The notes under the pieces: generated by a model
The model's database searches: none
Seen by the model: the letters and a program-made list of their open reading frames with translations, nothing else
What the model was told of the DNA's origin: nothing
Shown here: positions 20,073 to 46,446 of the stretch, piece after piece
Position numbering within the stretch: the stretch's first letter is position 1
Layout of the letters: every line of letters begins with the position of its first letter
DNA from: Owenia fusiformis
Taxonomy: Eukaryota > Annelida > Polychaeta > Sabellida > Oweniidae
Assembly: GCA_903813345.2 (NCBI GenBank)
Contig: CAIIXF020000002.1
Span: 15,508,467-15,572,466 of the forward strand
DNA: 64,000 bases
Reading direction: 5' to 3'
Position numbers and translations under genes: made by a program

Positions 20073-20080
20073 ATTAATTC
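20073..20080. repeat. Left 8-bp target-site duplication of giant transposon
   Basis: ATTAATTC immediately outside the left terminus; the identical octamer follows the right terminus at 46,439-46,446. Eight base pairs is the TSD length of P-superfamily elements. Confidence 0.9.
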
Positions 20081-20365
20081 CATAGGAGACAGGTTACCTG
20101 AAAAGGAAGATAGATGACATCTATTATTAATACCAAGGACAGAAACAGAGATGCATTTCAAACCTGCCTACCCTGGCTAAAATCAGCTCTGAAATGACAA
20201 TTACTGCATGTCAAGTCGTCATTCATGGCTGATTTTGTAGAAAAAAGATCCGACCATACTTCTACATGAGAGTTTTTACCCTAAAGATTCATGATCGAGT
20301 ACAAATCCATCCGATTCTACCCCTAAGAATTTCCATTTCATCTGTACATCAATCGCGTGAGGAAA
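20081..20365 (+). repeat. Left terminal inverted repeat, 285 bp
   Basis: Ungapped inverted match to 46,154-46,438 with 7 differences. Starts CAT, as Drosophila P does, and contains the interrupted palindrome CAGGTTACCTG ten bases from the end, a candidate transposase-binding site (inference). Confidence 0.92.
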
Positions 20366-21031
20366 TAAAACAAATCCGTACTTCACCTACAAAAGGCTAC
20401 AATTCACTTATAAATTGGATTTTTACGCTGTCATTTTTGCACCAACAAGAACATTTGTTGATAAATTAATATATCGTAGTGCAAGTAAAATCAACTTACG
20501 ATTCAAGTAGTATTTCTTGTAAAATAACTGCTTTCGAAATATCATAGACTTTACCGGAAACATCTGCCAAAGGGTACTAAGGACTGAATGAATTCTGGTA
20601 ATCTGATTGGCTGAAACATTGTTGTGCTTTCCTATCGTGTCTCCCGGGAATTTCCTTCCCCGGGAACTATTTTTTCGTTTAGCGCTATCGTGTTTCCCGG
20701 GAATTTTCTTCCCTGTAAACCAGCTTTTCGTTTATTGCGATCGTTTATCAGTCTCCCGGGGTTTTTGCTCCCTGTGAAAAAATAAACTCTTCTAAAGTAA
20801 CGTAGAGGGTATGATATCCTGACAGTTGGATTACTTTCTTGAACAACTGAAATTCATTTAACGCATTGCTTAATCTAGTAATAAACATTTTGGATGAAAA
20901 TAGCTATATTCTATGGAAAAACTGAGTAAATTTTTAGGCAAATGTGTTCCTTGAAACCTTGCCCCCCTTTTATGGTAACAAAATGGATCATTCCAATGCA
21001 AACTAATATTGTCAAAAATTAGTAAAACATC
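20366..21031 (+). promoter_or_regulatory. Leader region with TCCCGGGA repeat array
   Basis: Between the TIR and the helicase start codon. Three imperfect units spaced about 55 bp, near 20,632, 20,688 and 20,743, each carry TCTCCCGGG or TTTCCCGGGA followed by TTCCC. Position suggests a promoter or subterminal binding array; no test of function is possible from sequence. Confidence 0.4.
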
Positions 21032-24000
21032 ATGGATCTCAATGAGAAACAGTTACTTGCCATTCGCATATGTCTTTCTGGACATTCCCTGGCTTTGTTC
21101 GGACAAAGTGGCACAGGAAAGTCCGAAGTAATTAAATCTTTGGTTAGAGCTTTGAGGGATAGGGGGAATAAAACCATTCAAGTGACTGGGTCCACTGGTA
21201 TTGCAACCCAAACTTTCCCACTTGACTTTAAAGCCAGAACAATCAATAGGTATATATAGAATTATATAATATATTTATTAAACATGTTCATTACACTGAT
21301 ATTTTCATTACAACTTATTGTTACATTGAGCCATAGACAAACATAAAAAACTTGTCTTAGTGAACACCTCTCTCAAGTGAACACCTGTTTCTAGTACAGC
21401 CCTCTTTTAGCACACATTCCACTAACTATGAAATTGACTTGAAATTGGTAATAAAGATCTACCTACAAAAAACACATTTTTGTGGCTCCATGGGTGCTCA
21501 CTGTACACCTGTCTTACTATACAGGGCGTCCCGAAAGTATGCCCTCCCCCCTAGGCAGACATACACCAATGTTCCCATAGCCGACTATTAATTTTGTGTA
21601 AAACTAATCTTAAATTTTGGTAATACACTGCATTTTGAAATGTGTGTAACTTTTTCCCGTTTGTGAGTTGAAGCATGATACTTGGCAAATCAATGTAGCC
21701 TAACTTTGGACAAGCTTTAAAATGATATATGACACATACTATGGGGACATTGGTGTATGTCTGCCTAGGGGAGGGGGGCATACTTTCGGGACACCCTGTA
21801 CAATAACCTGTCTATGTGACATGTCAAACCTATCAGTATTATTCATGAATTCTTATACAAATTAAAATAGCAACTCCACAGAGTAGCAAATCGCACCAAA
21901 CAAAACATATTTGCATTATTAGTGGCAATCTTGAAAATTGTTTCTTGAGTAGAGGCATCAACATATAAAATGTGAACCATATCAATCAATTGGTATAAGA
22001 GTTATCAACGTTTATCAACATTATCATCATTTTATGAAAAATGGCAACCATTTTGAAATTCGGGGGCCATTTTCAAAATTCTTTGTCAAACAGAGCTATT
22101 GTGACATCAGCATTTAAAATTTGAACCAAATTCGTTCACTGGTGTTTGAGTTATCTAAGATTACATTTTTTAAAAATTACATTTCCTTAAAATTCTTTTT
22201 CAAACAGAGTTATTATGTCCCTAGGCATCATCATATAAAATGTAAACCAAATCCGTACTCTGCTATTACAGTCATTACAATTTACGTCTTTTATGAAAAA
22301 TGTCTTACAAGTATATGAGTTACCAATGATGAAGTTTTTAACAAAAAATGATGGCCATTTTGAAAATCAGCCTCAATTTTGAAAAAACTTTCTTGAACAG
22401 AGCAACTTTGTCACAATGTGGCATGATCATCATATAAAATTTGAACCAAATCTGTTCACTGGTATTTCAGTTTTCAAATATTACTTTTTTAAAGGAAAAT
22501 GGCCACCATTTAGAAATGAAGCATTGAAAAGCATCTTGAAAAGTCTTTGTTGAACAGAGCTACTGTGTTTTTTCCCAAGGTATCATCATAAAACATTTGA
22601 AGCAAATCCGTACACTGGTATTTGAGTTATCACATATTATATTTTTTCCAAAAATGGCAGCCATTTTAAAATTCAGTCAGCATCTTGAAACCTCTTTGTC
22701 AAACAGGGCTACTGTGTCCCCAGGTATCATCATATAAAATTTGAAGTTAATCCATTCACTGGTACTTCAGTTCACTGGTGATCCACTCGATTACGCTGGT
22801 TACCAAAACGAACCGTTTTGGTAACAAAATGTCGGAACGTCGAAGGCACGATTTTTCTTTTTTCCTTATTTCACGCGCTGTAGGCAGAATCCCCACGACG
22901 TTTTTTTCTCACAACGTGCATCAGTATCATATGTTTTAGATAATGTACATGTTTGCGAAAAAATAGCTCAGAGGACAACAGAATCGTCGATTTACTTCCT
23001 CACTTAAGTTACATAAACGGTTTTTCGAAAAACAGTTAAGATCTGCACTTTTAACCCAAACCGTTTATGTAACTTAAGTGAGGATGTAAATCGACGATTT
23101 TGTTGTCTTCTGAATTATTTGTTCGCAAATATGTACAATTTCTTAAACATATGATACTGATACACATTTGTGTTAAAAAATGTCGTGGGAATTCTGCCTA
23201 CAACGTGTAGAATAAGGAAACGGGAAAAATGTACCTTCCGGATGTTCCGACATTTTGTTACCAAAACGGTTCGTTTTGGTAACCAGCGTAATCGAGTGGA
23301 TCACCAGTGCAGTTATCCATGATTACATTTTTTTTATGAAAAATTGGAGGTCACTTTGAAATTCAGAGGCCATCTTGAAAATCTCTCCTTGAACGAAGCT
23401 CATTTGTCCCTACACATTAGCATATAACATCTGAACCAAATCTGTTGACTAGTTTTTGTACGTTTTATCAAGGATTACATTTTGTACACAAAATGGTGGC
23501 CATTTTGAATTGAGCAGCCATTTTGAAAAAATCTTCTCGAGCAGAGGCCCTATACCCATTAGGCATAAGCCTCCTTCCCTCCTTAATGGTTTAACATCAT
23601 AATGTCTGCCATTACTATATTGTTTGTTATGTGAAAAATTCAATACTTCAGTTGGAGTGGCATCCAAGATGGACGCTTTGGGGCTGATGACATCTTAGCC
23701 AACATTAATGATGAGATATATGCCAATGCAGTCAAGGGCATTCGAGAAACAGATGTGCTTGTAATTGATGAGGTATCAATGATATCAAAAGTCACATTTG
23801 ACCTTATCGAAGGGGTATGCAGGGGTGTCAAGAATAAGGAAAAGATATTTGGAGGTATCCAAGTGCTATATGCAGGTATTAAATGCTTTACATACATTTC
23901 ACTGTTTCATGCGTTATAAATCCTTTGTAATGTATGAGGGCTTCACATAAGGAAATGAAAACAATATATTTAAATAAAATACACAACATATTTCCAGTCT

Positions 24001-27000
24001 ACCATCTTATTGAGCTATAGCATATTCCAAATGACTTAACATGATGCCAATTGTATGTTTCAGGTGATTTTCTACAACTATCTCCTGTGCCAAATGCATT
24101 ATATGGTGACAAGGGCGAGCATTGCTTCACAAGTGAGACCTTCAAGGAAATGTTTGCTCATACATTAGTGTTGACACAAGTTATGCGACAAAAAGATGCT
24201 GAGTTTGCAGAAGTAATTATTTTAACAAAATTGTACAGGATTAACAAGAAGAACGGCAACGCCAAAGCGTAGCGAATCCCATCGAACAGAAATGGCTGGA
24301 ATTTTTACAAACGAATAGCAAATATCATAAAACAACACACCAGAAAGGCCATCATTTTCAAAATGGTTGCTCACTAGCCAAGTTGTCATCAGAAGAAATT
24401 ATATGCTTTTAAGTAGCCACCTCTAAAATTTTTGAAAAATCGCATACGAACTTGTAAAATAACACACATAAAAATGGTGACCATTTTTCAAAATGGTCGA
24501 CTACTCCCCATAGACAATGTGCCATGCTTAAAGTATTCACATATCAAATATGAACAAAATTGCTCCACTACTTTTCGAGTTATAGTAAATACGTTAAAAT
24601 TGCAGCCATTTTTCAAAATGGCCACCTTCTACCAAAAGTGTCATTAGAAATAGACAGTGTGCCATGCTTATAGTATTCACATACCAAATACGAACAAAAT
24701 TGCTCTACTACTTTTCGAGTTATAGTATGTTAAAATGGCGGCCATTTTTCAAATTTTTTTCAAAATGGCCGCCTTCTACCAAAAGCGTCATAGGACAGTG
24801 TGCCATGCTTATAGTATTCACATACCAAATATGAACAAAATCGCTCCACTACTTTTCGAGTTATAGTAAAATACGTTAAAATAGCGGCCATTTTTCAAAT
24901 TTTTTTTCAAAATGGCCGCCTTCTACCAAAAATGTCATAGGACAGTGTGCCATGCTTATAGCATTCACATACCAAATATGAACAAAATCGCTCCACTACT
25001 TTTCCAGTTACAGTAAAATATGTTCAAATGGCGGCCATTTTTAAAAATGGCCTCCTTCTACCAAAAGTTTCTTTAGACAGTGTGCAATGCTTATAGTATT
25101 CACATACCAAATATGAAGAAAATCGCTCCACTATTTTTTAACTTACAGCAAAAATCGTAAAATGACGAGTAAAGGCCACCATTTTTCAAGATGGCTGCCA
25201 TGTGCTTCTTTAATATCTACATTTGTAGCATTATTAATGTCCTTTATAATGTTTTTACAATTAAAATATATTGCTATTACAGTTTTACATATTGCACCTA
25301 AATTACTGTAAAATCCGCACTAAAATGGCCGCCATTTTGAAATGAGCAGCCATTTTGAAAATCGGCTTTGGAGCAGAACTTCTACCCCCATAGGGTATAT
25401 GTGTACAAAATATGAACAAAATCGGGCCAGCGGTATTTGAGTTATTGCCCGGACGGATGTACGGACGGACGGACGGAGGCGTTCCCTATATCCCTCCGAA
25501 CTTCGTTCGATGGGATAATTAAAATCAATAAAAGATATGTCCATGTGCAGTCACATCTTTCACATAGGGTACTTTCTGGCCATCAATACAGTGGTTTTAA
25601 TGAAAACAATATGCTTTCTTTTAGGTCAAGTACCCATGATAGTAAAATATCAATCGAACAATCTGAAAAATTATGGATTAGGACCCCACCTTGGCATTTT
25701 TTGAAAATGTCAGGCTAATTTACTAAAAATCAGATCTTATTCTTCTCAATTTAAACATATCGAGTTTCTTCTACACTATATGAACATTTTCTGAAAAGGT
25801 GATGCATATTGAAATGCGTTGAAGTTAAAAAACACATATCCCATGTTATTTTCCCATAGAGAAAACTCGTGCTATCCATTGTTTTCAGCCTAACTTTGGT
25901 CATCGAAAATTGGAATCTTCAAAAATAACATTTCAATACCATTCTACATTTGAAGAAGTTTTAGACACATTGATGAATCTTCTTTTCATGCAATATAAAC
26001 CAGAAAAAGATTCAACAGTTTTATTCATAGTTTTAAGAATTGTTCGCTTGATATTTTTTTATCATAATGGGTACTTTACTTGAAAGAAAACATGTTGTTT
26101 TGATAATAACCACTGTATGTATGCCCGGAAATTATTATTAGTTAAAGATATGACTTTCTAAAATCATTTGCCATACTGCACATAGACCTTTATTGACTAC
26201 ATACACTAGTAGTCACATGAGGCATATACAATGGGCCAATGATATTTGAGTTATTGCCCCAACGCACATTACATATCATTACATATTAATAGTAAATATA
26301 TACACACTGCAGGTATCTATTACAATATTCCATAAGCATCATGTCATAAGCATTGATACATATGCAGTTCCATAAATTATGGATTTAAGTAACAACTATA
26401 AATTGACAACTCCACGGAGTAGCAAATCCCAAGGAACACCCTTTTCAAGAATGTCACAATGTTATATTTTCCATCTACTCTACCCTTGAATAAATTGGCA
26501 GATATTAAAAGACATACTATATATCTAAAATTCTTTCAATTTAAGTACAATGTAGCCAAACTTTGGAGGGATCAGAAAATTATTGCAAAATACTACTTTA
26601 GGCAGCCATTTTGAATTTTATGAGACATGAATCTGAAAATGATACAATACTTGCAATCAACTCTAAATGTAAATTGCCTTTCATTTCAGCAAAATAAAGC
26701 TTTTATTCTGAGAGATCAACTAGTATTATGTAATCTTCTGCATAGACAGACAGTCAGATGGATAGACAGACGGAGGCCTTCACTATATCCCTAATGAACT
26801 TAGTTCATTGGGATAACAATATTCTATTCTGTTTCACCTTATCTTTCTGAACTCCACTTAACAGTTGCTGATATTTTGTTACACTTATTCTATGCAGATT
26901 ATTAACCGAGTTGCTGCTGGTGAACAATCCCATGAAGTAATTTCCTATCTTAGAGGATTGTCCAGAGATATTGAAGATGAACATCAAGCAGTTCATATCT

Positions 27001-30000
27001 TTGGTACGAACCGAGAATGTGAGAATTACAACAACGATCGTCTTGCTGAGGTAGGCAATGTTACTTTGAAGTGACTGTGTTGGCCTCTCCCTGTGGTTGA
27101 TGCGCCTGAAATAATAACATACACATAGTCTTAAAAGTTAATAACCAGAACAATGGCAACGCCAAAGCGTAGCGAATCCCATCGAACAGAAATGGCTGGC
27201 ATTTTTACAAACGAATAGCAAATATCATAAAACAACACACCAGAAAGGCCACCATTTTCAAAATGGTTGCTCACTAGCCAAGTTGTCATCAGTAGAAATA
27301 ATATGCTTTTAAGTAGCCACCTCTAAAATTTTTGAAAAATCGCACACATACTTGTAAAATAACACACATAAAAATGGTGGCCATTTTTCAAAATGGCCGA
27401 CTACTCCCCAAAGTTTTATTAGACAATGTGCCATGCTTAAAGTATTCACGTATCAAATATGAACAAAATCGCTCCACTACTTTTCGAGTTATAGTCAAAT
27501 GCATTAAATGGCGGCCATTTTTCAAAATAGCCACCTTCTACCAAATGTGTCATTAGAAATAGACAGTATGCCATGGTTATAGTATTCACATACCAAATAT
27601 GAACAAAACACCAAAAGTGTCATAGGACAGTGTGCCATGCTTATAGTATTCACATACCAAATATGAACAAAATCGCTCCACTACTTTTCGAGTAATAGTA
27701 AAATACGTTAAAATGGGGCCAATTTTTTCAAATTTTTTTTCAAAATGGCCGCCTTCTACCAAAAATGTCATAGGACAGTGTGCCATGCTTATAGTATTCA
27801 CATACTAAATATGAACAAAATCGCTCCACTACTTTTCGAGTAATAGTAAAATACGTTAAAATGGGGCCAATTTTTTCACATTTTTTTTCAAAATGGCCGC
27901 CTTCTACCAAAAATGTCATAGGACAGTGTGCCATGCTTATAGTATTCACATACCAAATATGAACAATATCGCTCCACTACTTTTTGAGTAAAATACGTTT
28001 AAATGGCCGTCATTTTGAAATATTGCCGCCTTCTACCAAAAGTGTCTTTAGACAGTGTGCAATGCTTATAGTATTCACATACCAAATATGAACAAAATCG
28101 CTCCACTATTTTTTGAGTTACGGCAAAAATCGTAAAATGACGAGTAAAGGCCGCCATTTTTCAAGATGGCTGCCATGTGCTTCTTTAATATCTACATTTG
28201 TATCATTATGTCCTTCATAATTTTTTTACATGTAAAACATATTGCTATTACAGTTTTACATATTGCACCTAAATTACTGTAAAATCGGCACTAAAATGGC
28301 CGCCATTTTAAAATGAGCGGCCATTTTGAAAATCGGCTTTGGAGCAGAACTTCTACCCCCATAGGGTATATGTGTACAAAATATAAACAAAATTGGGCCA
28401 ACGGTATTTGAGTTATTGCCTGGACAGACGGACGGACAGATGGACGGACGGATGTACGGACAGACAGACGGATGGAGGCGTTCCCTATATCCCTCCGAAC
28501 TTCGTTTGATGGGATAATAATATCTGAACATTATGAAAGAACTAATTCTTCTTTGATCAACTTTGTTCTCATACGACCTTTGTTCCATACACATTTTCCT
28601 GTAAAATATCAATATCATTACTTCTCCCCTCTTTACTTTTCACTTTGATATTTTCAGTTACCTGGACAAGTTAAACGGTACAATGGTGTAGACAGCGGAG
28701 ATATCCACTATGCTAAAAAAATTCAAGCATTGAAGTCCCTTGACATAAAACAAAACACTCCAGTTATGCTGATAAGTAATATCAATGTGGCAAAGGGACT
28801 GGTGAATGGTCGAAGTGGGTACATTGTATCACCAGATGACAAGCCAGTTGTTCGCTTTAAAGGCAGCAACAAAGATGAGGTTCTTGAACCCATAATGTTT
28901 TCAGGTATTGCATAACATAAAACATTATGTACTGATGTAAATGGGGACACACTACGACTCCAAAACACATTACTCCAAAACCCATTACTCTGAAATCAAC
29001 ACTCTAAAACCCAATACTCTGTAATGTAATACTCCAAAACCCAATACTGGGAAGCCCATTAATCTGAAAGCCATTACTCTGACATGTAATACTCCCATTG
29101 CTGTGAAATGAATACTCCAAAGGCATTTCTCTGAAATGTATTAGTACCAAATCAATACTCTGATGAAACCCATGACTCTGAAATCATCACTCTGAAACCC
29201 ATTACTGTGAAATGTAATACTCCCAAATCCAATATATGCAAATCTTTTAAATGGGTTTCATAGAGGATATCCTATGATTTATGAGTGATATGATTTTTAT
29301 CCATGAATGGATATGATATGTGCACGAGCAAGCGTAGCTTATCATATCCAACTAGAAAAACAGCAACTCCACGGAGTAGCAAATCCCACCGAACGGCAGT
29401 TGAGTTACCAAAGATTACGAAAATGAAAATGAACAAGGCACAGACGTGAACAATATCGTACCTAAAACACAGCATTGTGGTCTTGTTGACCAAGAAAGCA
29501 AGATGGCCGCAGAAAAGTTAATGAGGTCTAGAACTTATCACTGTGTAACATATGTAAAAAAATGTGAACGGTTTGGCTGGAAACCTGTAGACAAGTCTTG
29601 AAAGTGAAGATTTTAGGACGGAAAATCCAAAATGGCCACCTTAAGATTTACCCAGAATGCCCAAAAACTAATCAGTTCTTGACGTTGATATGTAGAAACA
29701 TCCCTGAAAATTTCAGATGAATCCCTCAAATGGTTTGGCTGGAAACCTGTAGACAAGCTGAAAAGTGAGACGCCGCCCGTCAAGCTGACTACAATATCGT
29801 ACCTTTTGTTAGGTACGATAAAAATGGCAGCCATTCTGAAGATCAGCCCCCATCTTGAAAAAGTTTTCTCGAACAGATCTACTGTGTCCCTAGGAATCAT
29901 CATATAAAAAATGAGCCAAATCTGTTCACTGGTATTTGAGTTATCAAACATTACGTTTTTTACGAAAAATGGCGTACATTTTGAAATTCTGCCGCCATCT

Positions 30001-33000
30001 TAAAAATTCTTTCTCGAACAGATCTCCTTTGTCCCTAGGCATCATCATATAAAATTTGAGCCGAATCCATTCACTGGTATTTGAGTTATCAAAGATTACC
30101 TTTTTTACGAAAAATGGCCGCCATTTTTAATATCAAGCCGCCATCTTGAAAATTCTTTCTTGAATAGATCTATTGTGTCCCTAGGCATTATCATATAAAA
30201 TTTGAGGCAAATCCATTCACTGGTATTTCAGTTATCAAAGATTACGTTTTTTTATGAAAAATGGCTGCCATTTTGAAATTCAGTGGCCATTTCGAAAATC
30301 CCATCTTGAGCGAAGCTCCTTTGTCCCTAGGCATCATCATATAAAATTTGAACCAAATCCGTTCACTGGTATTTGAGTTACCAGAGATTACGTTTTTTTA
30401 CCAAAAATGGCCGCCATTTTGAAATTCAGTGGCCATCTTGAAAATTGTAACTCGAACAGATCTACTGTGTCCCTTGGCATCATCATATACAATTTGAACC
30501 AAATCCGTTGACTGGTATTTGAGTTATCAAAGATTAAGTTTTTTTACGAAAAATGGCCGCCATTTTGAAATCTAGCCGCCATCTAGAAAATTTTTACTTG
30601 AACATATCTACTGTGTCCCTAGGCATCAGCATATAAAATTTGGACCAAATCCGCAAACTAGTATTTGAGTTATTAAAGATTACATTTTTACGAAAAATGG
30701 CGGCTATTTTGAATTCAGTGGCCATATTGAAAATTCCTTCTCGAGCAGAGGTCCTACACCCATAAGGCATAAGCCTATAAAATTTGAATCAAATCCGTGA
30801 AACGGTATTTCAGTTATCGCCTGGACAAACAGACAGACGGACGGACAGACGGACGAACGGACGGATGGCTTTCCTATATCCCTCTCGAACTTCGTTCGGT
30901 GGGATAAAAATATCATATTTTACCACTGATTACAAAAATACCGTTTTTATTTTCACATGTTATCCTATGAATATCATGCTAACTATGGAATAAATAAGAA
31001 TATGCCTCACAAAAGTTTATGTTATACAATGTAAAACCCTTAACCCTTACAAACTTGAGCTGTTTTTCACCTAATTACTTTCAGTGTATGATCCAGCTCT
31101 AAACACAGATGTGTTTACGAGACAACAGGTTCCACTGAAAGTCAACTATGCTGTTACTTGTCACAAAACCCAAGCTTCAACCCTCCCTAAAGTGGTGGTT
31201 CACTGTGACAATGTTAACATGCCAGGACAACTAGGGGTTGCCATAGGTCGGGTAAGGAGGAAGGAAGATGTGAAATTGGTTAACTTTCGACCAAACTGCA
31301 TTGTCCGTCAGCCAATGCACGTTCTAAATTTCATAAGAACAGTGAAAGAACAGAATGTTGAAGACACATTGAAACGAGACTTAACATGCTGCACTGGAAA
31401 AAAATGGCAGACTGCAACAACATCACACAGTAGCTTTGCTCATCCCCCACCCAGTGACCCACCTACAACACCCCATAGTACCCTGCCTCCTCTCCCACAC
31501 AGTGCTACACTTGCAGCCACACACAGTGACATACATCCATCCTCACACAGTGTCCCACCCACAGCCACACAGAGTGACATCCATCCATCCTCATACAGTG
31601 TCTCACCCACAGCCACACAGAGTGACATCCATCCATCCTCATACAGTGTCCCACCCACAGCCACACAGAGTGACATCCATCCATCCTCACACAGTGTCCC
31701 ACCCACAGCCACACACAGTGACATCCATCCATCCTCACACAGTGTCCCACCCACAGCCACACAGAGTGACATCCATCCATCCTCACACAGTGTCCCACCC
31801 ACAGCCACACACAGTGACATCCATCCATCCTCATACAGTGTCTCACCCACAGCCACACAGAGTGACATCCATCCATCCTCATACAGTGTCCCGCCCACAG
31901 CCACACACAGTGACATCCATCCATCCTCATACAGTGTCCCACCCGCAGCCACACAGAGTGACATACATTCATCACAAGACAGTGCCTCACATTCACAACC
32001 TTCAACCTCAAGTGGTGCCCTTCCCTCAGAACTACATGATGAGGATACAGTACCATACCTAGATGAGTCAGTATTGGAGGCTATATACGAGGGTACGTAT
32101 ATACAGTGTATGTCATCATAAATTGTCACTAAAATTATCATTATCTAATCAAGTTTATCCTGTAAAAAGAAGGCAATATTTCTCTTTAAAGTGTATTTTT
32201 TGTAGTAATGTAAACGAATGGCACTTTAGTAGTCTTTGCCATTAGGAAAATGAATATTACATGTTATGCTTATCATGTGACACTGTAACCACATTCATTA
32301 ATAGCTGGACAAATCAATGTTAACTAAAATGGTTGAAAATAAAAAAAACGGATATAAGTTTTAGCAACAAAATTATTTCATACAAATACTCTTTACAATG
32401 ACATGGCTTTTTACAATGCAGGACACCTGAAATTATTTGTATATAGCCAGAAAATTGGGCCAAAAGTGAATTATGGAGACAAAATAGGCGAGCTTTTGAA
32501 CCAGGAGGCATAGGGGAGTTTTCTGTATTGATGTTGAACAATAATAACTTAAAATGGGAATCCTATCGACAGAGGTTTTAAAGCAAATGGGCCAAAAGTG
32601 AATCTTGCGAGACAAAAATGGTGGCCATTTTGAAATTATGCGAGCTTTTGAAACAGGAGTCAAAGAAGGGTTTTGCTGTTTTGATGTTGAACAAAAATAA
32701 CTTAAAACGGGAATCCTATTGACAGAGGTTTTAAAATGGGCCAATTGTTGAAAGACAGACAGATGGGCAGACGGACAGACAGACGGACAAGTGAGTGATT
32801 GCAATAGGTAACTAGATTGGTAAATTGAACAAACTTCAATTTAAGACTCCAGATTGATTTACTTGAGTAAAGAGCTGAGTAAGTAACTGAGTAGGAAGCT
32901 GAGTAAGTAGACGATTAAGTAATTGAGTAAGTAGCTGAGTAAGCAGCTGAGTAGGTAGCTGAGTACGTAGCTGAGCAAGTAGCTGAGTAGGTAGCTGAGA

Positions 33001-36000: not shown

Positions 36001-36811
36001 AGGCAAACTTAACCACATTTCAGACAAAACTTCTAAATTTTTTACTCTATTAACCGAAGAAACACTTTCCAAGCAAAAAGAAATTCCTATACAAACAAAC
36101 ATTGGTAATACAATAGCCAACTCACTGATCCAAAATGACCAACTTAAAGTAACATATGAAGAAGGATTTGATTCACAATATCCTTCTGAGTTACCAAATG
36201 ACTGTGATAGAATCCAAATTCAAAATGACTTGTATGTAGAAATCATAAATCTTTTTGTTCGAGTGCTCACAAAACAATTAAGGAAAGACTTCATAAATTT
36301 TCATGAAACCAAAAAAACACAGGCACACAGAAAAAAAGTCTTGCAGAAAAAAGCTAAAAATTCTGAAATTTCATGGACTACAATATCTAATGATCAGAGT
36401 GTGTCAAAATGTAATTCACACAATGAATTAAAACGCCACATAAGTGAGTATGGAACCATTCCAAGTAAGTTCACAAAATTAGAAGCTACTCATCTTGCAA
36501 AAATGTATAACATCCCCCTCAAATCAAACCTGAAGAAGTCAATAATTGTGGACAAACTACTGAAAGAAATTCCTTCAAGACAAGGTATGTCAAATGCGAA
36601 CTATGCTGGACCAAGTAGGGACCAACTACCACGCCCAAAAGTTCGCTACCAATGCCCAGAGTGCCTGCTAAGTGTCACATCAGAGCAAGAAGGAATTCAG
36701 TGTGACCGCTGCAATAAGTGGGTTCATAAAGAATGCTCACAAATTGACAATGAACATGACTGGGATGAGATATCTAAACCAGGAATTGAATTTATATGCC
36801 ATTTTTGCTAA
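21032..36811 (+). CDS. PIF1-family helicase with SAP-like motif and PHD finger
   Basis: Predicted nuclear ATP-dependent 5'-3' DNA helicase carried by the giant transposon. Exons: 21032-21249, 23652-23875, 24064-24212, 26898-27050, 28658-28904, 31085-32092, 34674-35060, 35727-36811. All seven junctions keep frame, giving 1,156 aa without a stop. Helicase signatures: Walker A GQSGTGKS (residues 24-31), TGSTGIA, Walker B VLVIDEVSM (D112, E113), GDFLQLSPV (148-156), LTQVMRQ, YAVTCHKTQAST (about 352-363) and VAIGRVRR. A Ser/Thr/Pro linker follows with nine full 16-residue repeats (SDIHPSSHSVPPTATQ), then a charged helical region, a SAP-like motif (LKKSIIVDKLLKEI) and a canonical C4HC3 PHD finger whose ligands are C1105, C1108, C1121, C1124, H1129, C1132, C1153 and C1156. 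The PHD suggests histone-tail binding, perhaps for targeting. Introns hold many repeats. Rep/HUH motifs are absent. Confidence 0.88.
21520..21800. mobile_element. TA-flanked palindromic miniature element
   Basis: Ends TACAGGGCGTCCCGAAAG and its inverted partner (GGGACACCCTGTA), with arms that also share GGCAGACATACACCAATG. A TA at each edge fits a Tc1/mariner-type miniature element. Lies in helicase intron 1. Partial relatives end near 37,060 and 62,360. Confidence 0.75.
21871..23575 (+). mobile_element. Pearl/HINE-like interspersed repeat, copy A
   Basis: Starts CAACTCCACAGAGTAGCAAA and continues with units of about 150 bp built on 'GAACCAAATCCGTTCACTGG' and 'AAAATGGCGGCCATTTTGAA' motifs. 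The right end is degraded. Interrupted by the fold-back element at 22,773-23,309. In helicase intron 1. Confidence 0.65.
22773..23309. mobile_element. 537-bp fold-back element, TSD CAGTT
   Basis: Almost the whole element is a palindrome with ends CACTGGTGATCCACTCG. CAGTT is duplicated at 22,768-22,772 and 23,310-23,314. Inserted inside the pearl-like copy A. Short relative at 7,064-7,287. Confidence 0.8.
24257..25518 (+). mobile_element. Pearl/HINE-like interspersed repeat, copy B
   Basis: Starts CAACGCCAAAGCGTAGCGAA, carries core units of about 135-147 bp, then a GGAC/GGACGGAC microsatellite, and ends CTTCGTTCGATGGGATAA. The start's ATCCCATCGAAC is the inverse of the end's GTTCGATGGGAT, forming subterminal inverted repeats. 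In helicase intron 3. Confidence 0.7.
26407..26816 (+). mobile_element. Pearl/HINE-like interspersed repeat, copy C
   Basis: Short copy: CAACTCCACGGAGTAGCAAA start, GACAGACGGAGG microsatellite, TTCATTGGGATAA end. In helicase intron 3. Confidence 0.7.
27157..28517 (+). mobile_element. Pearl/HINE-like interspersed repeat, copy D
   Basis: Close relative of copy B with the same ends and core ('CATACCAAATATGAACAAAA' units), ending in a GGACGGAC tract and TTTGATGGGATAA. In helicase intron 4. B and D probably derive from one source element. Confidence 0.7.
29364..30906 (+). mobile_element. Pearl/HINE-like interspersed repeat, copy E
   Basis: CAACTCCACGGAGTAGCAAA start, about seven core units ('TTCACTGGTATTTGAGTTAT'), a GACGGACGGACAGACGGACG microsatellite and a CTTCGTTCGGTGGGATAA end. 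A copy of the 162-bp satellite element (29,432-29,822) is nested inside. In helicase intron 5. Confidence 0.72.
29432..29822 (+). mobile_element. Short copy of the 162-bp satellite element
   Basis: Same ends as 581-1,788 (AACAAGGCACAGACGTGAAC ... CAATATCGTACC) but with only about one full core unit, so copy number of the core varies between insertions. Confidence 0.75.
31521..31965 (+). repeat. 48-bp coding minisatellite in helicase exon 6
   Basis: Nine full 48-bp units plus a partial one, each encoding 16 residues of the linker. Because 48 is a multiple of three, alternative frames on both strands also stay open; these are shadows, not genes. Confidence 0.9.
32300..33050. repeat. ACGG-bearing repeat and GAGTAAGTAGCT minisatellite
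   Basis: Two diverged units ('GGGCCAAAAGTGAAT', 'GGAATCCTATCGACAGAGG') end in a GACGGACAGAC tract and AAGTGAGTGATTGCAA, followed to about 33,050 by tandem GTAGCTGAGTAG units. Relative at 40,050-41,125. In helicase intron 6. Confidence 0.6.
33100..34250 (+). repeat. Three dispersed copies of a ~150-bp segment
   Basis: The segment around 'GGTTTGCAGATTCAGATTCC' and 'TTGACCTACTTTCCGGACGC' occurs at about 33,110, 33,602 and 34,085, spaced roughly 490 bp. Short open frames over these copies are not genes. In helicase intron 6. Confidence 0.6.
35061..35726. other. Helicase intron 7 with short tandem units
   Basis: Between the last two helicase exons. Three units around 'GTGCAACAGTATAGTTCA' repeat at roughly 60-70 bp from 35,410 to 35,585, followed by a fragment of a pearl-like end. 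No coding signal. Confidence 0.5.
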
Positions 36812-37071
36812 TAGAAACATGAAGTACACTGTTACCATAGGAATGTGCAAAGACTACTTGCAATACAAATAATATAAGATGAGCATTAACTTCAAAAGTA
36901 ATGGAGACATTTACTTGAAACTTAATGAGTGATCACATGTAGACAGTAGTCTATTGGGGAGACAACTTTCATGTTTTAGCTACATGATCATGTGTTAGAA
37001 AATATTGATTGGTGAATCTGTGCTATTGATATACTTTTGGGTATATTTTTGGAGACACCCTGTATACTGTA

Positions 37072-40000
37072 TTATGAGTTTAATGAAAATATAGTACTTA
37101 CCACATTCTTTACTGGGGAATTAGTCAAGGTTTTCAGTGGTGGACGTGCATATGGAGTTGCTGCCTTAGACTTAACAACATGCTTTCCAGAGTTCCTCTT
37201 TTTGGATAAAGTGCTTTGGCCAAGTATAATAGCGTTTTGTGTAGATTTGTACTGTTGGTAATTTGGATTTGTGTTTGCCCCATTGTGGGTTGCACGAACT
37301 TGACAAAAGTGGTTTTCTATCGGATCACTGTTGATGTAAGTGGCCATGATAGATGACTGAGGTGATGTTGTAAACCTGGAATTGTAATTATTATTTTTAG
37401 AATATGTAAAACAATTGTTATGAATGAGTATTGTGAAGCTTCAAACTAAAATTTGGAGACATAGTATTGAATCATTGGGAATTCATAAGAATGCAAGCAT
37501 TATTCAACACAAACAAGTAAATAACATCATATGATGATTATAACAAGTGGGGATCCACAGGAAACAATGTCATTTTGTCCTCCAATCGAAATAGATGTTC
37601 ATATCTTTAATTAATTAACTATTTACCCATACTCATTAAGTACTTTATATGTCAACTCACTTTCAAACACTCAAGTGAAACCTATGAACTTATGTATGGC
37701 GAGTTACGCCATACTATTTTTTCACATTTTGGAATGTTTACAAAATAGGTTACAACATTTTAGGCTTTATGATCATTCTATCGTCAGCTTTACAATTGTT
37801 ATTGTTAGTACCTCAACTGAAATGCTCGAATCTGATTGGTTCATTAGCGGTCAACAATATGTACTGTTGACCGCTACTTTTGAAAAAAAAGTTTCATGAC
37901 GTCATAATGTTTACAGAAAAAACATGATAGACGGACATTTTGTAAACGTTGATGAAAGTGATATTTTCACTTTACTAGTTGACAAGTATAGCAAAAATAG
38001 AAATAGAAACGTAACATTAACATTAATTTATTAATGGGTACACAGTGATGTGCCGAAAACAGAGAAGTTAGCTACGACTGTCCTCAGATTTTCTAAAAAA
38101 ATATTGCTGGTATGGTTCGGAGGAAAGATTGTGAAATGAAGCCATTCTGATTGATGATTGTCGTCTATATATGTATTATTAGTTTCTTCGGACTAACAAA
38201 ACAATTGTAGACCTCTACATTCGGTCAACGGTCAAAATCCTATACCTCGACTGTAAACCTTGAAACTAATGTTGACCTAGACCTTCGGTCTCTGTCAACA
38301 GTAGTTTCTCGGTTTACAGTCTCGGTAAACAATTTTGCCGAGAGACCTCTGGAGAGGTCAACAATTGTATATAGTGAAAGTAGAAAGTAAAATCTATTCC
38401 CTAGAGAATGAGTGCCTTTTTATCATGCACACAACTAGCTTTGCTAGCTAACATTATTGCCATTTCTGTAGGGTAACTGGTAAGGTCACCATTTTGACTG
38501 AAATGATCAGTTATATTCAGTGGTAATGTAAACAAAGCCAGTACCAAGTCTGTGTCATACATGCAACTTTGCTTTTCAAAAGAGAGCTTCGTGTTCACTA
38601 TATCAGTTTTCAATAAATCTCTCAACTCATCATGCTAATCAGAGTTTGTTGTCAAAATAAGGACGACTTTCTATTATGGTCATTTTCTCTGACATAATCG
38701 CCTAATTATTGTGCACGTATTTAGCATGTATTCCTTCCAGCTTGCTGACTGGATGAGAATTGGTCAGAATTGGAAATGATTTATGACTCAAGCCAGCTAC
38801 TAAACTGTAATATGGCCTATACTAGTAGGCAGAGGGTAGTTTATAAATAGACTCGGCATGCAGGGTATGCTTATGATCATACAATAGGGGAGTATATACA
38901 CCCTTGGTATACGCAGCTAACGAAAATTGACCGGTACGGGTCAAAAGCTGGACCGGTACGGGTTAACGGATTTATTTGAATTTAAAATAGCCATAACTTG
39001 CTCAATATTGACTTTGTGTCTAATTTGAAATATATGATGCCTCCCGATGCTTTTAAGTACCCCAATTTTTTACAGATTTTTAAACGGACCAAAACTCTCT
39101 AAATGCGCATTTATGCTCTTTTCTCTCGAGAACGACTGTCTCATTTTCACGATAACTTTTATTTAGTACTTCTAACATATAAAATATATTTTTCCCCATC
39201 AAGGTATGATGTAAATGACATGCTATTTACATCTTGTGAGTTTTAATGAGGCGCGTTTGATTTTATAAAAAATGCCAAACTTTGTGACAAAGAATTTCAT
39301 CCTGCTTGCAGCGAGAAGACGGACCGGTTCGGGGCAATCTGCTTGCAGCGAGAAGATGGACCGGTTCGGGGCAATAGCTGATGAAATTCTTTGTCACAAA
39401 GTTTGGCATTTTTTATAAAATCAAACGCGCGTCAGCTTTTGACCCGTACCGGTCAATTTTCGTTAGCTGCGTATACCAAGGGTGATATAAAGCTAAGATG
39501 GTTGTTACTATAGCTGTCATATTCATTAATATGTATATAAAATGACTACAATTGTCATTAAAAAAATAAACTTACACAATAACAGAGTTTTTTGATTTGT
39601 ATATTTCTTGTAGGTTCGATTCCCACCAGGGTGAAGTGTCTTAGCATAGCCCTTGTGATAATATATCATATGAAATCCCATTTTCGATCAAATGGGTCAT
39701 GACGCCACAATATAGCGTCTTCGATATCGTCAATGACAACGGAATCTGATTTTGAGTAATTTAGAAAGACAACAGCACATTGTAATTACAGTGTCTGTAT
39801 CTCATTTTGATTGGTTAAATCTTATACTTTATTTCTATGGTAGAACATTATTAACTGTACAATGAGTAGTAAGACACTTTGATTGATTGTTGTTCCGATC
39901 CGAAGGAATTTAGTCTAGGTGCTCTATTAAACCTGCACATCGCTCCAAAACGCAATATGTTGACATATATTATTTTTACATTTTCAAGCTCTAATATAAA

Positions 40001-43000
40001 GTTTATGTAAATAAAAAAATTTTTTTGCGTAATATATACCGTGGGTACTGGGCTCACATGGTGTTGCTCAAAAGTGAAAATAATAAAAAAGATGGGTATA
40101 ATTTTTTGCAGATTTTTTGTGACAAAATTATTTCATACAACTACTCTTTAAAAACACATGGCTTTTTACAATGCAGGAGCAGGACACCTGAACTTATTTG
40201 TAAAGCTAGGAAATGGGCCAAAAGTGAATTTCCCAAGACAAAAATGGTGGCCATTTTGAAATTAGGCGAGATTTTGAAGCAGGAGTCACAGGTTTTTTTT
40301 CTTTATTGATGTTGAACAAAATTATTTTAAATCGGGAATCCTATCTACAGAGGATTTAAAAAGTGTTGACAGAGGTTTAAAACTTGCCACTTTTTTGGAC
40401 TGACTAAGAGACAGATGGACGAATCAATGTTAACTAAAATGGCTGAAAATAAAAAAACTGATATAATATTTTGCCGATTTTTTGTAACAAAATTATTTCA
40501 TACAACTACTCTTTACAGTGACATGGCTTTTTACAATGCAGGACAGCTGAAATTATTTGTAAAGCTAGGAAATGGGCCAAAAGTGAATTTCGCGAGACAA
40601 GAATGGTGACCATTTTGAAAATAGGCGAGCTTTTGAACCAAGAGTCATAGGAGAGTTTTTTGTATTGATGTTCAACAAAATTAACTTAAAACAGGAATCC
40701 TATCGACAGAGGGTTTAAGGCAAATGGTCCAAAAGTGGATTTTGCGAGACAGATGGACAAATCAATGTTAACTAAAATGGCTGAAAATAAAAAAATGGAT
40801 ATAATTTTTCGCTGATTTTTTGTAACAAAATTATTTCATACATCTACTCTTTACATTGACATGGATTTTTACAATGTAGGACACCTGAAATTATTTGTAA
40901 AGCTAGGAAATGGGCCAAAAGTGAGCTTTTGAACCAGGAGTCATAGGGGGGTCTTCTGTATTGATGTTGAACAGAAATAACTCAAAACAGGAATCCTATC
41001 GACAGAGGTTTTAAAACGTGCCACTATTGTTGACGAACAGACGGACGGACATCTTGTAATACAGACGGACGGACAGACAGACGGACAAGTGAGTGATTGC
41101 AAAAGCTCACCATGTGAGCTAAAAAGGGGCATGCGGGATTCGAACCCGGGCCTCCCGCGTGCTGAGCGAGCATTCTACCGCTAGACCACCGTGATATTAT
41201 GTATGGTAGAAGTAATTAAACGCTACTTATTTTGAATGCTATGATTCGGAAGTGACGTCACGTTCTTCATTTAGAAACCTTTCCAAAATCATATCGCCGG
41301 CTCCGATCAGAGCAATTCAATGAAAAATCTTTGAAATGACACATTTATAGTAAGTATTTCTACACAAGATTTGCCCCATTTGTTCATCATTCTATAATCC
41401 TTCATTAAGCTCAAAATGATAAAGTTCACCCCCGAAACAACCCAAGATGCGTTTCGGGGCAAAGTCCAGCTTTAAACATACAGTTCATGAAAATATAATT
41501 GAAGCGACGGTTATGCCCCCCATTTGTGACAATGTTATCTGACTTTACCGTTGTCAGGCTATTCCGGGGTGTATGTGCAAGTATTCAAGATATTTGGCTT
41601 ACAAATGGATGGAATACCTGACAGAGAGAGGGTTTCACTGTTTTGTTAAGATAATGATATATTTACCAATCTTACCTCTCTTTGCAAAGTTGTATAAAGC
41701 CAAGAACTGCTGACTGTAAATCAAATCTGGTCTCATCTGACAATAGTCGTTGCCTCCATAGACCACCAGCTGTCTTTTCTGACTCCTCCCACGAAAGAAA
41801 CCACTCAGAGACGGACTTTAATGCCACTATCCTGTCATCAGTTAGTGATTTGATGGGTCTCTTGTCCTCACAGAAAATTGTGACTAAAACACTTGTCTGC
41901 TGGAGTAGTTCTATTGGTCCATTTAAAGCCTCACTTCCATTTCCTAGAGTTGACTTGTACTGTAACATGACTTCTAAAAAATGGCGGTCTAATACTTCTT
42001 CTGCCAAATGATTTCTCATTTTAGATGCATTGTCCAAATGTATATGTTTGTCAGTAAGTTTTCGATTAATATCCAATGAATTACATTTGTCGAAATTATA
42101 GGTATCCACAAATTGGTCCCATACAATTGGGCAGTTTTTCCAAGATAAAGTCCTATTTCCACTTGATCTACTTGCCAAAATACCATTTCTTATTTTCTTC
42201 AGACAGTGCTTCATATCCATTATGAAAATCAAATATTGCCTAAATGGATTTTTTGGCGATGGTATTTTGAAGTTCTCAGTAAGGGGGTTCATTTCTGTAA
42301 AATTGATATCAATGAGTTGTCTATTTGTGATTGCACCATCGAGGCTGCAATAAATGATTGTAAATGTGTATACTTCCAAAAAAGTAATAAGTTTCCAAAG
42401 AAGAATATGTAATTCTTCTGCAGTTGCCTGTTTGCTTGGAAAATGGGCCAATGGCCATCTGAAGCCATTGAGGCCTAAATAGGTGAACTGGAGTACATAA
42501 GAAGCTAATGCCTCCTCTGAAGATTTGCTTGACATTATCTTCAGGTCCATAGCTTCTCTCCCCATATCCACAAATCCAACTAATTTCAAGTGTGAGCCTT
42601 GACGTACACAAATCAGATCCTCCTGGATAGACATCTCATCAATGAGGATCCCACCTGTATACGCACTTTGAGGCTGTTGCTGTTGTTTAGCCTGTTGCAG
42701 CATCCAATTAATAATATCCGGATTTAATCCAGTGTCATTAGACGCTTTAGCTTTGTAGTGTTGCAGAGTTCTGCCAGAAGGTAATTTTATAAATCCTGAA
42801 TTGTTCAAAGTCTCGTAGGACTTTGGATTTTGGCACCACAGTCCTAAAGCAACACTGATGGTAGCCTGGTCCCACTTGTGACCCCTGGGGTCATTAAGCA
42901 TTTGATGTTGTTGTTGTTCATGGAAAAATTTTTTTGTAGCATTGGATGCATTTGGCATAACCTGATCAATAATATCTTGTACATCTTTAGAGTCTGATGG

Positions 43001-43745
43001 ATCTACCTTTAAATAATTTTTATCCCTGGAATATTTTACAGTAATATTCCTGCAAACTGTACATGACTGTGTAGAATTACCCATATGGAATGTTAAAACT
43101 CTATTGCAGTTTGGACTCCTTAGAATATAATTAGGGCTATTGGAAGATATTTGACATTTTTCTACTTGGATTGAACGCACTACTGTATCGCCTAATTTTG
43201 GTTTGCCGCAACAGAGGGATATATTGTTGATAATGTTGAATAGAGTCTGCATACAGTTGGTATCACTGGGGAAAGTATTGTCAAGTAAAATAGATTGCAG
43301 GTCAACAGTTCTTGTGCCCACACATATCTTAAATGTACTGGTTACTGTAGAAATTATGATGTCTTTAAAAATGGGTAGTCCATTCAATGTCATATCAGAC
43401 TTCAGTTGGATGAGAATGTCTGTAGGCTCTTCAGATACCCTGGCATTTGGAATGATGGACATCACATTTTGTTTAACTACTTGGTAACTGGGAGCAACAG
43501 CAGTGCCCTGATAACAAGTGCAGCTGTTTTGTCTATACTTTAATCCGCTATATATGGTAGCCTGTCTATCACTGCTGCATGGAACATGAACCCTTTCACG
43601 TTTTGTGCCTATTGCATTCATTATCAACCTTCCAAAGTTTGCAGGATTGACTTTGCTTCCTATATCAGCTTCACAAAGCTTTACCAAACTGTCACAGACT
43701 TCTGGTGTGGCATTATCCTTTGATAGCATGGTATGATGGACTAAC
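37072..43745 (-). CDS. P-element-type transposase (P superfamily), two exons seen
   Basis: Predicted DDE/RNase-H-like transposase that cuts and joins the 26-kb element. Exon 43745-41676 encodes the main body; its donor GAGAG|GTAAG joins in phase 2 to an acceptor at 37375, and that exon runs to the stop at 37072. The product is about 785 aa from the first ATG (43,729); five codons upstream are open to an AG acceptor, so an earlier exon is possible. Numbering from that ATG: an RFX-like winged-helix stretch (VNPANFGRLI, GLKYR; about 10-66); a Cys-rich region (170-230); first catalytic Asp D364 in LIDEMSI; second D464 in CSLDGAI; a GTP-binding insertion-type motif MDMKHCLKKIRN (504-515); SDETRFDLQSAVLGF (664-678). 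The second exon supplies SDPIENHFCQVR, whose E705 is the likely third catalytic residue, plus GANTNP. The length is close to Drosophila P transposase (751 aa). The usual THAP domain is not seen. Confidence 0.85.
38899..39484. mobile_element. Palindromic element with CACCCTTGGTATACGCAG ends
   Basis: TIRs of about 50 bp extend into GCTAACGAAAATTGACCGG and GTACGGGTCAAAAGCTG, and the interior is partly palindromic. ATATA stands directly outside each end (38,894-38,898 and 39,485-39,489). The sequence is AT-rich here, so a TA duplication cannot be excluded. Confidence 0.7.
40050..41125 (+). mobile_element. ACGG-bearing interspersed repeat with ~330-bp units
   Basis: Three units with 'TTTTTACAATGCAGGACA' and 'GCTAGGAAATGGGCCAAAAG', then GACGGACGGACAGACAGACG, and a terminal hairpin AGCTCACCATGTGAGCT. 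The left edge carries CTCACATGGTG. Same type as 32,300-32,816. Confidence 0.6.
41126..41195 (-). tRNA. tRNA-like sequence, probable pseudogene
   Basis: The minus strand shows D-arm TCTAGCGGTAGA, an anticodon arm with CTCGC/GCGGG stems, T-arm with GGTTCGAATCC, and a TTTTT tract at its 3' side. The body resembles tRNA-Gly but the anticodon would be AGC (Ala), loop position 33 is C instead of U, and the acceptor strands do not pair. Likely a tRNA pseudogene or SINE head. Confidence 0.5.
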
Positions 43746-43811
43746 CTGAAAATTAAAATAAAAAATGTATGTCATAAAAATATTCAGTAAGCAGTAAAAA
43801 CTATAAATCTG

Positions 43812-44405
43812 CAACTCCACAGAGTAGCAAATCCCAACGAACACTATATAAATTGTGAATCTGTACAGTCACAATGTAATATTTACCATTTACTCTTTCC
43901 TTCAATAAACAATTGAGATCATTGTACAACATTTAAAAATGTCTCTAAGTAATGCCAAATTCCTGCTCTAGACAGCCATTTTGAATTTCAATCAGAAACA
44001 CAATACCATAATCGTGATCTACTCTAAAATTTCTTTTTCTCAATTTACATGTATAATATATAGACAATATCTAAGAGATCAGAAAAATTCTTGCAAAATC
44101 CCTCATTAGGCAGCTACATGTATTTTGAATTTTACAAAGCCTGATTCAGAAAAACGATATAATATTTGCAATCTACTCAAAATTGCCTTTCATTTGAGTA
44201 TAGTAAAGCTGTAAAAATAATTCAAACTTCTCTTGAAAATGAAAATAAAATTAAATTCATTACTTTGGTTTCAGATGAAAAACATCCAATATAAAGAAAA
44301 TCTGTCATATAGTTTTTGAGTTATCTTCAGGACGGACAGACAGACTGATGGCCAGACGGACAGATGGCTTCACTATATCCCTACCAAACTTCGTTCATTG
44401 GGATA
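43812..44405 (+). mobile_element. Pearl/HINE-like interspersed repeat, copy F
   Basis: Starts CAACTCCACAGAGTAGCAAA, carries a GACGGACAGACAG tract and ends CTTCGTTCATTGGGATAA. Lies just upstream of the transposase exon, still inside the giant transposon. Confidence 0.7.
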
Positions 44406-46153
44406 ATTACAACAATTCTCATCTATAATTTTGTTCAAATACATGAACATATAACGTGGGGAATAAGTCACCAAATTGTAATATTCTCCTAATATATGCT
44501 ACACAATGTAAAAGGGAGGGGTGACTAAAGGTCAACATACAACAAATAGCTGATTTCTTTAGACTAAACCTATGTCCAGTGAGCACCTAACCCCCCTCCC
44601 ATTGAATAAGCAAGACATAAACGAGGCCCTATCTCTTGCAAGACTTATGCCTGGCAAAACTTTCACCATGTTATTAAATGTTTTTAAGTTTCGCAAGGAT
44701 CCAGCCATGACCATGGTAGTGTTATAGTGAAAGCCTGGTGTAATCGTGATTTATCCGGATCGGATCGCAGATCGTACAAATTCACCGGCCCTGGAGTATA
44801 AAGGATATATGCTTCGTCCAGTAATAATGTCAAAGAGGTATGGTGACGGCTGTACCAGGCATAACTCTTGCATCCTTAGCATGTGAATTTTCGTTTGAAT
44901 TTTTAGACATTTTCGTCACCGGAAGTAGACAATTATCATTGTTTATCGCATTCCTACAACAACCTACAAGAAGAATTCATGAAATATGTAATTGTAAGAT
45001 GTTGTTTGTAAAACAGACAGACTTATCTATTTCGGATCTTACCATGAACATTGAGTTTTGGCCATTTTTAGCTAGAGGAAACTAATATTCTTCGCAGCTG
45101 GGCAATCTCCTAGCGTTCGTTCAGTGCAACAGTATTCACGTGACCTGTGCTATTTTCTTGTTCTTTTTCATTTAAGAGCTATCAAAAATCAATTTGTAAA
45201 ATATACATTCTAATAAGAATTTTATCAAGTAGAAAATCATATTATTTATTTAAACAATCCAACATTATATTTATTTGGAGATCATTCACCTCAAACACCA
45301 CGTGATCATCACGTGACAAAATGGCAAATGGTCCGTCAAACATATTTCAACTTTGAATATTTCCATGAAATACAGGTGAGATTTCAAGTAATCATTTTCT
45401 AAAAGATTATGTATAAATGCGTGAACATACACATTTGCCGTTTGTTGAATAAGAGACAATTTCTCCTTGCAGTTAGTGGACATTAGTTAAAAGGAGGCGA
45501 AGTACGGATTTGTTTTTTTACAAAGACCCCCCACATTAGAACTTTCCACAGAGTCCAAATGATGTCACGACAAGATCCAATAAGTTTCAATCAGGGTCCA
45601 GATGTCATTCACTAGGGATTTAATTGGACTTTTGAGATTAGTTGTATATTTTTGGGCTATAAGACGCCACAACAATATGTGCTTAAGTTACATGATTGTT
45701 TTATGTCACCGTGTAGAGATGGTGACATAATGAAGTTTGTTAGAGTTTATTCGTATATTTAAACCTTTTCTTGGTCATGCAATACTGCATCAAAACACAA
45801 AAAAACAGATATAGAAATTGTGTTCACAGTTTGAAAATCTGATTTAAAACCCCTTGCAAAATGTAACATAACGTAAAAGAGCACGAAGCGCTATCTATAT
45901 TGTTCTTGGTAAAAAAGTCATTTACAAAAATAACAATAGAGTTCCTTACTTGTAAGTAACCCTACCCCATCCAGAACAGTATACCAATAGCCTAATAGTA
46001 TAAGTGGCGCTACATGTTTCTGTGACAATATAACCATTTACTTAATAGATTCCACTAAAAGCAACATTTCACTATCACTCCATCTTTTCCGCCCCTTATA
46101 CCTAACTTCGGGTCTTTGTAGTTTTTCAGTGATTTTTTCACTGGATTATCTTG
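44406..46153. other. Right subterminal region of the giant transposon
   Basis: Between copy F and the right TIR. It should hold the transposase promoter and any 5' exon on the minus strand. A minus-strand open frame at 45,286-45,483 could end at a phase-2 donor but shows no recognisable domain, so no exon is called. Confidence 0.4.
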
Positions 46154-46438
46154 TTTCCTCACGCGATTGATGTACAGTTGAAATGGAAATTCTTAGGGGT
46201 AGAATCGGATGGATTTGTACTCGATCATGTATCTTTAGGGTAAAAACTCTCATGTAGAAGTATGGTCGGATCTTTTTTCTACAAAATCAGCCCTGAATGA
46301 CGGCTTGACATGCAGTAATTGTCATTTCAGAGCTGATTTTAGCCAGGGTAGGCAGGTTTCAAATGCACTTCTGTTTCTGTCCTTGGTATTAATAATAGAT
46401 GTCATCTATCTTCCTTTTCAGGTAACCTGTCTCCTATG
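46154..46438 (-). repeat. Right terminal inverted repeat, 285 bp
   Basis: Reverse complement of 20,081-20,365 with 7 mismatches and no gap; ends GTCTCCTATG against the duplicated octamer. Confidence 0.92.
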
Positions 46439-46446
46439 ATTAATTC
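46439..46446. repeat. Right 8-bp target-site duplication of giant transposon
   Basis: ATTAATTC, identical to 20,073-20,080. Confidence 0.9.

Follow-up and report, generated by a model that had tools for sequence, protein, structure and literature searches.

A 26-kb P-superfamily transposon with a predicted second gene for a Pif1-type helicase

P elements serve as a model for cut-and-paste transposition. In this process, the break that the element leaves at the donor site is repaired by the host (PMC7776569, cited here, as are the other papers, from excerpts). The locus described here raises the question of whether 26 kb of DNA with P-like ends, containing genes for both a transposase and a helicase, constitute a single transposon, and what such an element would do with a helicase of its own. 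The window, i.e., the whole stretch of 64,000 nucleotides that was analyzed, corresponds to C2:15508467-15572466 of a 498-Mb assembly of 525 contigs, and its gene content and introns point to an animal genome. The identity of the element and its association with the two genes are very probable. The fuller reading, which we favor on balance, is that of an autonomous and recently mobile P-superfamily transposon with a second gene that encodes a Pif1-type 5'-3' helicase with a PHD finger and that has been kept in related loci.

Boundaries and predicted genes of the element

Terminal inverted repeats (TIRs) of 284 bp with 7 mismatches bound the element at window positions 20081-46438, which gives an element length of 26,358 bp (Table 1); the ungapped repeat extends to 293 bp with 10 mismatches. 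The first-pass annotation, which was made from the letters of the window, had described inverted ends of 285 bp with 7 mismatches and a perfect 8-bp target site duplication (TSD). The measured repeat is one base shorter, and the TSD was exact, with ATTAATTC located immediately outside each TIR. Read inward, both TIRs start with CATAGGAGACAGGTTACCTG, and the termini are CA...TG, with CATAGGAGACAGG... at both ends. The ends of Drosophila P elements also start with CAT. The same is true for the zebrafish element Pdre2 (CATACCTGTCAAC; PMC10983969), in agreement with the earlier description of the terminal CAT as P-superfamily-like. Outside the element, window 48552-50117 on the plus strand contained a lysine-rich open frame of 521 aa on 339-bp tandem repeats.

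Table 1. Coordinates of the features of the element in the window.
Feature	Position	Strand	Basis
Left 8-bp TSD, ATTAATTC	20073..20080	.	exact; single copy at the empty site on C402
Left TIR, 284 bp, begins CATAGGAGACAGGTTACCTG	20081..20364	+	repeat comparison; 20-mer counted genome-wide
Helicase exon 1, Walker A GQSGTGKSE	21032..21249	+	splice model, Pfam core
Helicase exon 2, Walker B DEVSM	23652..23875	+	splice model
Helicase exon 3, GDFLQLSP	24064..24212	+	splice model
Helicase exon 4	26898..27050	+	splice model
Helicase exon 5, Pif1 2B region	28658..28904	+	splice model, Pfam
Helicase exon 6, CHKTQASTL and VAIGRVRR motifs, then linker of 48-bp tandem repeats	31085..32092	+	splice model
Helicase exon 7	34674..35060	+	splice model
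Helicase exon 8, conserved RYVGSYVLAK region, putative SAP-like stretch, PHD finger, stop	35727..36811	+	Pfam, alignment
Transposase exon 2 (PF21789 below cut-off; E705)	37072..37375	-	Pfam, splice model
Transposase exon 1 (PF21787; D364, D464; D505xxH); further 5' exons possible	41676..43729	-	Pfam, splice model
Right TIR, 284 bp	46155..46438	-	repeat comparison
Right 8-bp TSD, ATTAATTC	46439..46446	.	exact

The helicase gene on the plus strand was predicted to comprise eight exons (21032-36811) that are separated by seven GT-AG introns and encode a protein of 1,156 aa with no internal stop. The spliced core matched PF05970 (PIF1; E=1.6e-23) and PF21530 (Pif1 2B; E=1.5e-6), and PIF1 in the PDB matched it over residues 1-418 of 430 (E=6.7e-50). 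The model contained six motif strings, which we take to be those of the Pif1 (SF1B) core. The C-terminal region beyond the tandem-repeat linker was conserved with helicases on C4 and C8, and the AlphaFold2 model of the C-terminal part had a mean pLDDT of 62.9. A PHD finger was detected by Pfam in the C-terminus (E=6.6e-6), as well as in the C4 protein. An intact PIF1-SAP-PHD protein had been proposed; the PIF1 and PHD parts were recovered, whereas SAP had no Pfam match up to E=1. The helicase introns harbored two copies of a tandem-repeat-bearing insert (24242-25477 and 27142-28448), which were 93-95% alike in parts, and the copy at 27142-28448 was absent from a helicase relict at C4:28.06 Mb.

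The transposase gene is located on the minus strand and converges on the helicase gene, with the ends of the two genes 260 bp apart. Its predicted model is an open frame of 785 aa in two exons (43729-41676 and 37375-37072), joined across an intron with the donor AGAG/GTAAGA and the acceptor TTCCAG. Both genes, which had been called intact, were thus open as predicted splice models with GT-AG introns. The P-like character of the transposase was borne out by a match to PF21787, the P-type RNase H domain (E=2.5e-14; 54.2 bits, cut-off 24.6). The C-terminal part of the RNase H, PF21789, scored 20.1 bits (E=6.6e-4), which is below its cut-off of 24. By model position, the catalytic residues would be D364, D464, and E705, together with a DxxH motif at 505-508, and E705 in INSDPIENHF aligned with INSDIIENIF of a transposase on C4. 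The GTP-binding insertion (PF21788) had no match in the transposase frame P0001 up to E=1; a distant homologue on C7 matched this model at 1e-21, and P0001 aligned with the C7 protein over residues 242-580. The transposase may be active.

An N-terminal THAP domain is present in characterized P transposases and was not used here as a defining feature. Pfam detected no THAP in frame P0001, and the C2CH spacing of THAP was absent from three frames of 43651-46150, a scan that would miss a THAP split by an intron. A winged helix, resembling RFX-like domains, was considered as a possibility for the N-terminus of the transposase. Just inside the right TIR, window 46060-46150 on the minus strand offered a short reading, RKRWSDSEMLLLVESIK, which we take to be SANT/Myb-like and which the transposase gene may use as a 5' exon; Pfam matched neither the N-terminus nor this SANT-like exon near 46.1 kb. 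A PDB search with the transposase returned chance-level matches only, and an AlphaFold2 structure that was built from eight sequences was not used (mean pLDDT 36.6). A stretch of 586 bp in the transposase intron (38899-39484) had inverted ends of 52 bp that matched perfectly. Among viral contigs, no relatives of the transposase or the helicase were found.

The empty site and the family of related ends

A query that joined 300 bp of the left flank (TSD included) to 300 bp of the right flank matched from end to end at C402:68008-68606 of the same assembly, with a reported identity of 100% and a left flank that differed by one single-base indel. This empty site contained one ATTAATTC. To the right, C402 matched the flank over 7,179 bp up to the end of the contig, with 3 mismatches. 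To the left, only about 323 bp matched, with one single-base indel, before a satellite array began. The array (C402:58001-67983, L043) is tandem, adjoins the empty site, and has close copies on C6, C8, and C10; it had no match in the 19.7 kb of the window to the left of the point where the flank match ends. The right flank is partly a dispersed repeat that is 90-96% identical elsewhere, and C402 was the only listed place that matched across both flanks (40 of 340 candidates scored). The C402 site is read as an empty allele, with a short allelic match on the left where a misassembly is possible. Such an allele with one TSD copy had been suggested as a check on the element by the first-pass annotation. 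Because the element is absent from C402 in one piece, the 26,358-bp unit and one copy of the TSD appear to have been inserted together, and recently. The TIRs, the TSD, and this one-piece absence agree with the single bounded mobile unit that had been proposed, and the presence/absence difference sits within one assembly.

The exact first 20 bases of the end occurred at 80 sites in the 498-Mb genome (41 forward and 39 reverse), and the same 20-base pattern read backwards, which was used as a control, occurred at none; the end pattern is therefore present beyond chance. The 80 sites were arranged as 31 facing pairs, namely the 26,358-bp element and 30 others of 99-7,004 bp, with 18 ends left single. 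Ten of these 30 were fetched, and perfect 8-bp TSDs, all different, were observed in all ten end pairs read. The end thus belongs to a mobile family. Of 94 candidate TIR matches, 40 were scored, and those other than the two ends of the element itself were 79-86% identical. The short elements thus resemble a sister subfamily that shares the terminal 20 bp. Three facing pairs with the exact 20-bp end measured as little as 99-120 bp and were located at C2:828058-828156, C7:31973626-31973745, and C11:21575421-21575530. One of the ten fetched elements (L021) contained a long reverse-transcriptase-like frame, which may represent a nested insertion.

No transposase or helicase match listed genome-wide overlapped with any of the other 30 facing pairs, and direct searches with both proteins in the ten fetched short elements (L012-L021) returned no match. 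Only one known copy has the TIR ends and both genes. Taken at face value, this is the observation that the first-pass annotation had named as evidence against its claim, namely other copies of the end that never include both genes. It is not read here as a refutation, because the 30 short pairs resemble non-autonomous members and two other loci also contain the gene pair.

Recurrence of the gene pair and possible roles of the helicase

A convergent transposase-helicase pair was also identified at C4:23.41-23.44 Mb and C11:21.61-21.63 Mb, both diverged, with a protein identity of roughly 31-38%. The C4 transposase was 31% identical in its main exon and had further exons, including one with the catalytic E. 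The convergent exons of the C4 helicase were 33% identical and included the PHD tail. The ATP-binding Walker A exon was not found at C4, and some exon matches contained stops, thus indicating that the C4 helicase may be dead. At C11, the transposase was split, with 321 of 742 query positions aligned, and the convergent helicase was an intronless open frame of 1,145 aa (C11:21622728-21626162, L008-L010) that carried H in place of D in motif III (GHFEQLPP). Its tail had a weak homeodomain match (E=0.024, below cut-off) in place of the PHD finger, as if a DNA- or chromatin-binding module had been swapped relative to the PHD of the C2 and C4 proteins. Self-alignment and an exhaustive TSD-plus-TIR scan recovered no TIR and TSD ends at either locus. 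The candidate ends at C4 were dispersed repeats only, and an old gapped inverted repeat at C11 (about 21611325-21611580 with 21629617-21629857) had no TSD; both were rejected as proof of boundaries. When 20 transposase and 15 helicase loci were placed at random, 5 of 20,000 runs gave at least two pairings within 20 kb, and with 9 and 9 loci 1 of 20,000 runs did so, in a test with rough locus counts that ignored the clustering of repeats.

Outside these loci, the two genes were often found apart. PF21787 matched at 13 places in the genome, 11 of which had no helicase match listed within 100 kb, and a C4-type transposase relict on C3 had no helicase nearby in 10086001-10102000. Helicase relatives were present without a P transposase nearby on C8, C12, C346, C9, and C10, in the stretches read or listed. 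On C8, an open helicase frame of 671 aa (C8:37957175-37961217; L011, L025) fell on the same branch as the element-type helicases, and no P transposase was detected in the surrounding 18 kb (C8:37953001-37971000). Two long open frames of 755 and 1,273 aa were located downstream of this C8 helicase. C346:121-131 kb and C4:28.06 Mb contained DNA fragments that were mostly about 90% identical to the helicase region of the window, with neither the ends nor the transposase present in the stretches read. FastTree analysis of joined tblastn rows (16 helicases and 8 transposases; many gaps, unrooted) grouped 8 element-type helicases on a branch of their own (support 0.985). The other 8 Pif1-like rows fell outside this branch, and some of them, those with long frames, were taken to be of the Helitron type. 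In the transposase tree, the helicase-linked proteins and the C3 relict were split from four helicase-free transposases (0.998), and the C11 protein was placed beside the helicase-free group (0.913). These results support an association of the transposase with the helicase that is not universal, with full-length boundaries shown once.

With regard to function, the P-type DDE transposase would cut and paste the element by acting on the 284-bp TIRs, thereby generating the 8-bp TSDs. After excision, the helicase would help to fill the donor gap by extended repair synthesis on the sister chromatid or homologue as template, and the very long element would thereby be copied back whole, instead of disappearing or suffering internal deletions. 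The PHD finger would anchor the helicase to chromatin. Copying back 26 kb would involve long synthesis, and an element-borne Pif1 would shift the balance toward full copies in a family dominated by short ones. P transposition proceeds through a 17-nt staggered cut with 8-bp TSDs, and the break left at the donor site is mended by HR or NHEJ, with BLM, a helicase of the host, taking part (PMC7776569). In yeast, break-induced replication is promoted by Pif1, which is present from strand invasion onward and stimulates strand displacement by Pol delta (PMC7073672). It is possible, although short of probable, that the helicase serves the maintenance of the element itself via such donor-gap synthesis. 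A replication-linked or repair-assisted mode of transposition, which the first-pass annotation had proposed on account of the 5'-3' helicase, is likewise no more than a hypothesis. Similarly tentative is the broader proposal of a giant P-superfamily lineage in which a chromatin-tethered Pif1 would be a conserved and needed second gene that drives donor-gap synthesis, so that a 26-kb element is copied back whole. If true, the element would encode its own counterpart of the repair for which P elements rely on the host.

Several other explanations were weighed against donor-gap repair. The helicase may be a passenger that was captured by a P-type element and kept by chance or otherwise, for example against silencing, without a part in transposition. 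Its presence in only one TIR-bounded copy, the 11 PF21787 places that lack a listed helicase within 100 kb, and the short members, for which the ends alone suffice, are all consistent with this reading. However, the same convergent order recurs at C4 and C11 despite a protein identity of roughly 31-38%, and the C11 helicase is open over 1,145 aa; this recurrence and the open frame suggest that the helicase has been kept over a long divergence. A passenger role is possible but less likely than not. It was also considered that two elements are present in one, i.e., that a helicase element lies inside a P element or has become joined to it, in which case the TIRs would belong to the P part only. 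The helicase relatives that lack a P transposase nearby, together with the fragments of about 90% DNA identity at C346 and C4:28.06 Mb, would fit such a composite. In contrast, no inverted repeat beyond chance surrounds the helicase alone (best E about 1, in the stretches compared), the entire 26 kb is missing from the empty allele, and the same convergent pair is found at C4 and C11, which render a composite unlikely.

A replicative or peel-and-paste-like transposition, in which the Pif1 helicase unwinds the element during transfer, agrees with the finding that the helicase core matched, among other PDB entries, a Helraiser (Helitron) chain (E=6.8e-16). It is very unlikely, as the 8-bp TSD, the long TIRs, and the DDE transposase are marks of cut-and-paste transposition, no Helitron model matched among the element frames scanned, and the helicase falls on a different branch from the Pif1-like helicases with long frames, which are putatively of the Helitron type.

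Comparison with known systems

Helitrons and Helentrons resemble the element in that they are transposons with a Pif1-type helicase. Helitrons encode a rolling-circle Rep/HUH protein and are not known to have a TIR or TSD. The element described here differs from them in its DDE transposase, TIRs, and TSD, and does not qualify as a Helitron.

Both Drosophila P and zebrafish Pdre2 share with the element a P-type RNase H transposase, an 8-bp TSD, and short, internally deleted members. Drosophila P is 2.9 kb long with a 31-bp TIR (PMC7776569), in contrast to 26.4 kb and 284 bp here, and the TIR of Pdre2 is 13 bp (PMC10983969). Furthermore, the element differs from both in its extra helicase gene, in a THAP domain that was not found, and in a GTP-domain model without a match. 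The earlier statement that described P elements encode a transposase only is consistent with the excerpts of these two papers (PMC7776569; PMC10983969), and searches of open-access papers turned up no P-superfamily element that carries a helicase. Galileo of Drosophila also belongs to the P superfamily and has long TIRs of up to 1.2 kb, but its TSD is 7 bp, and the helicase mentioned in the excerpts of its description is a host gene outside Galileo (PMC2775673).

The closest parallels in gene content are other DDE transposons with a helicase, including KolobokH and Kolobok-1_CCri, the latter with its helicase on the complementary strand (PMC9587614), and AcademH, in which a helicase has been added (PMC10799480). 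KolobokH and AcademH belong to other transposase superfamilies, and Kolobok elements have TTAA TSDs and RecQ helicases (PMC9587614), in contrast to the 8-bp TSD and Pif1 helicase here; with its P-type transposase, the element falls into neither group. With a repair-type helicase of its own, two open genes, and a presence/absence difference, it makes the dependence of P elements on host repair testable. It would also bring the P superfamily, and the Pif1 family of helicases, into the small set of helicase-bearing DDE transposons (Kolobok and Academ), hinting at repeated, independent recruitment of helicases by DDE transposons.
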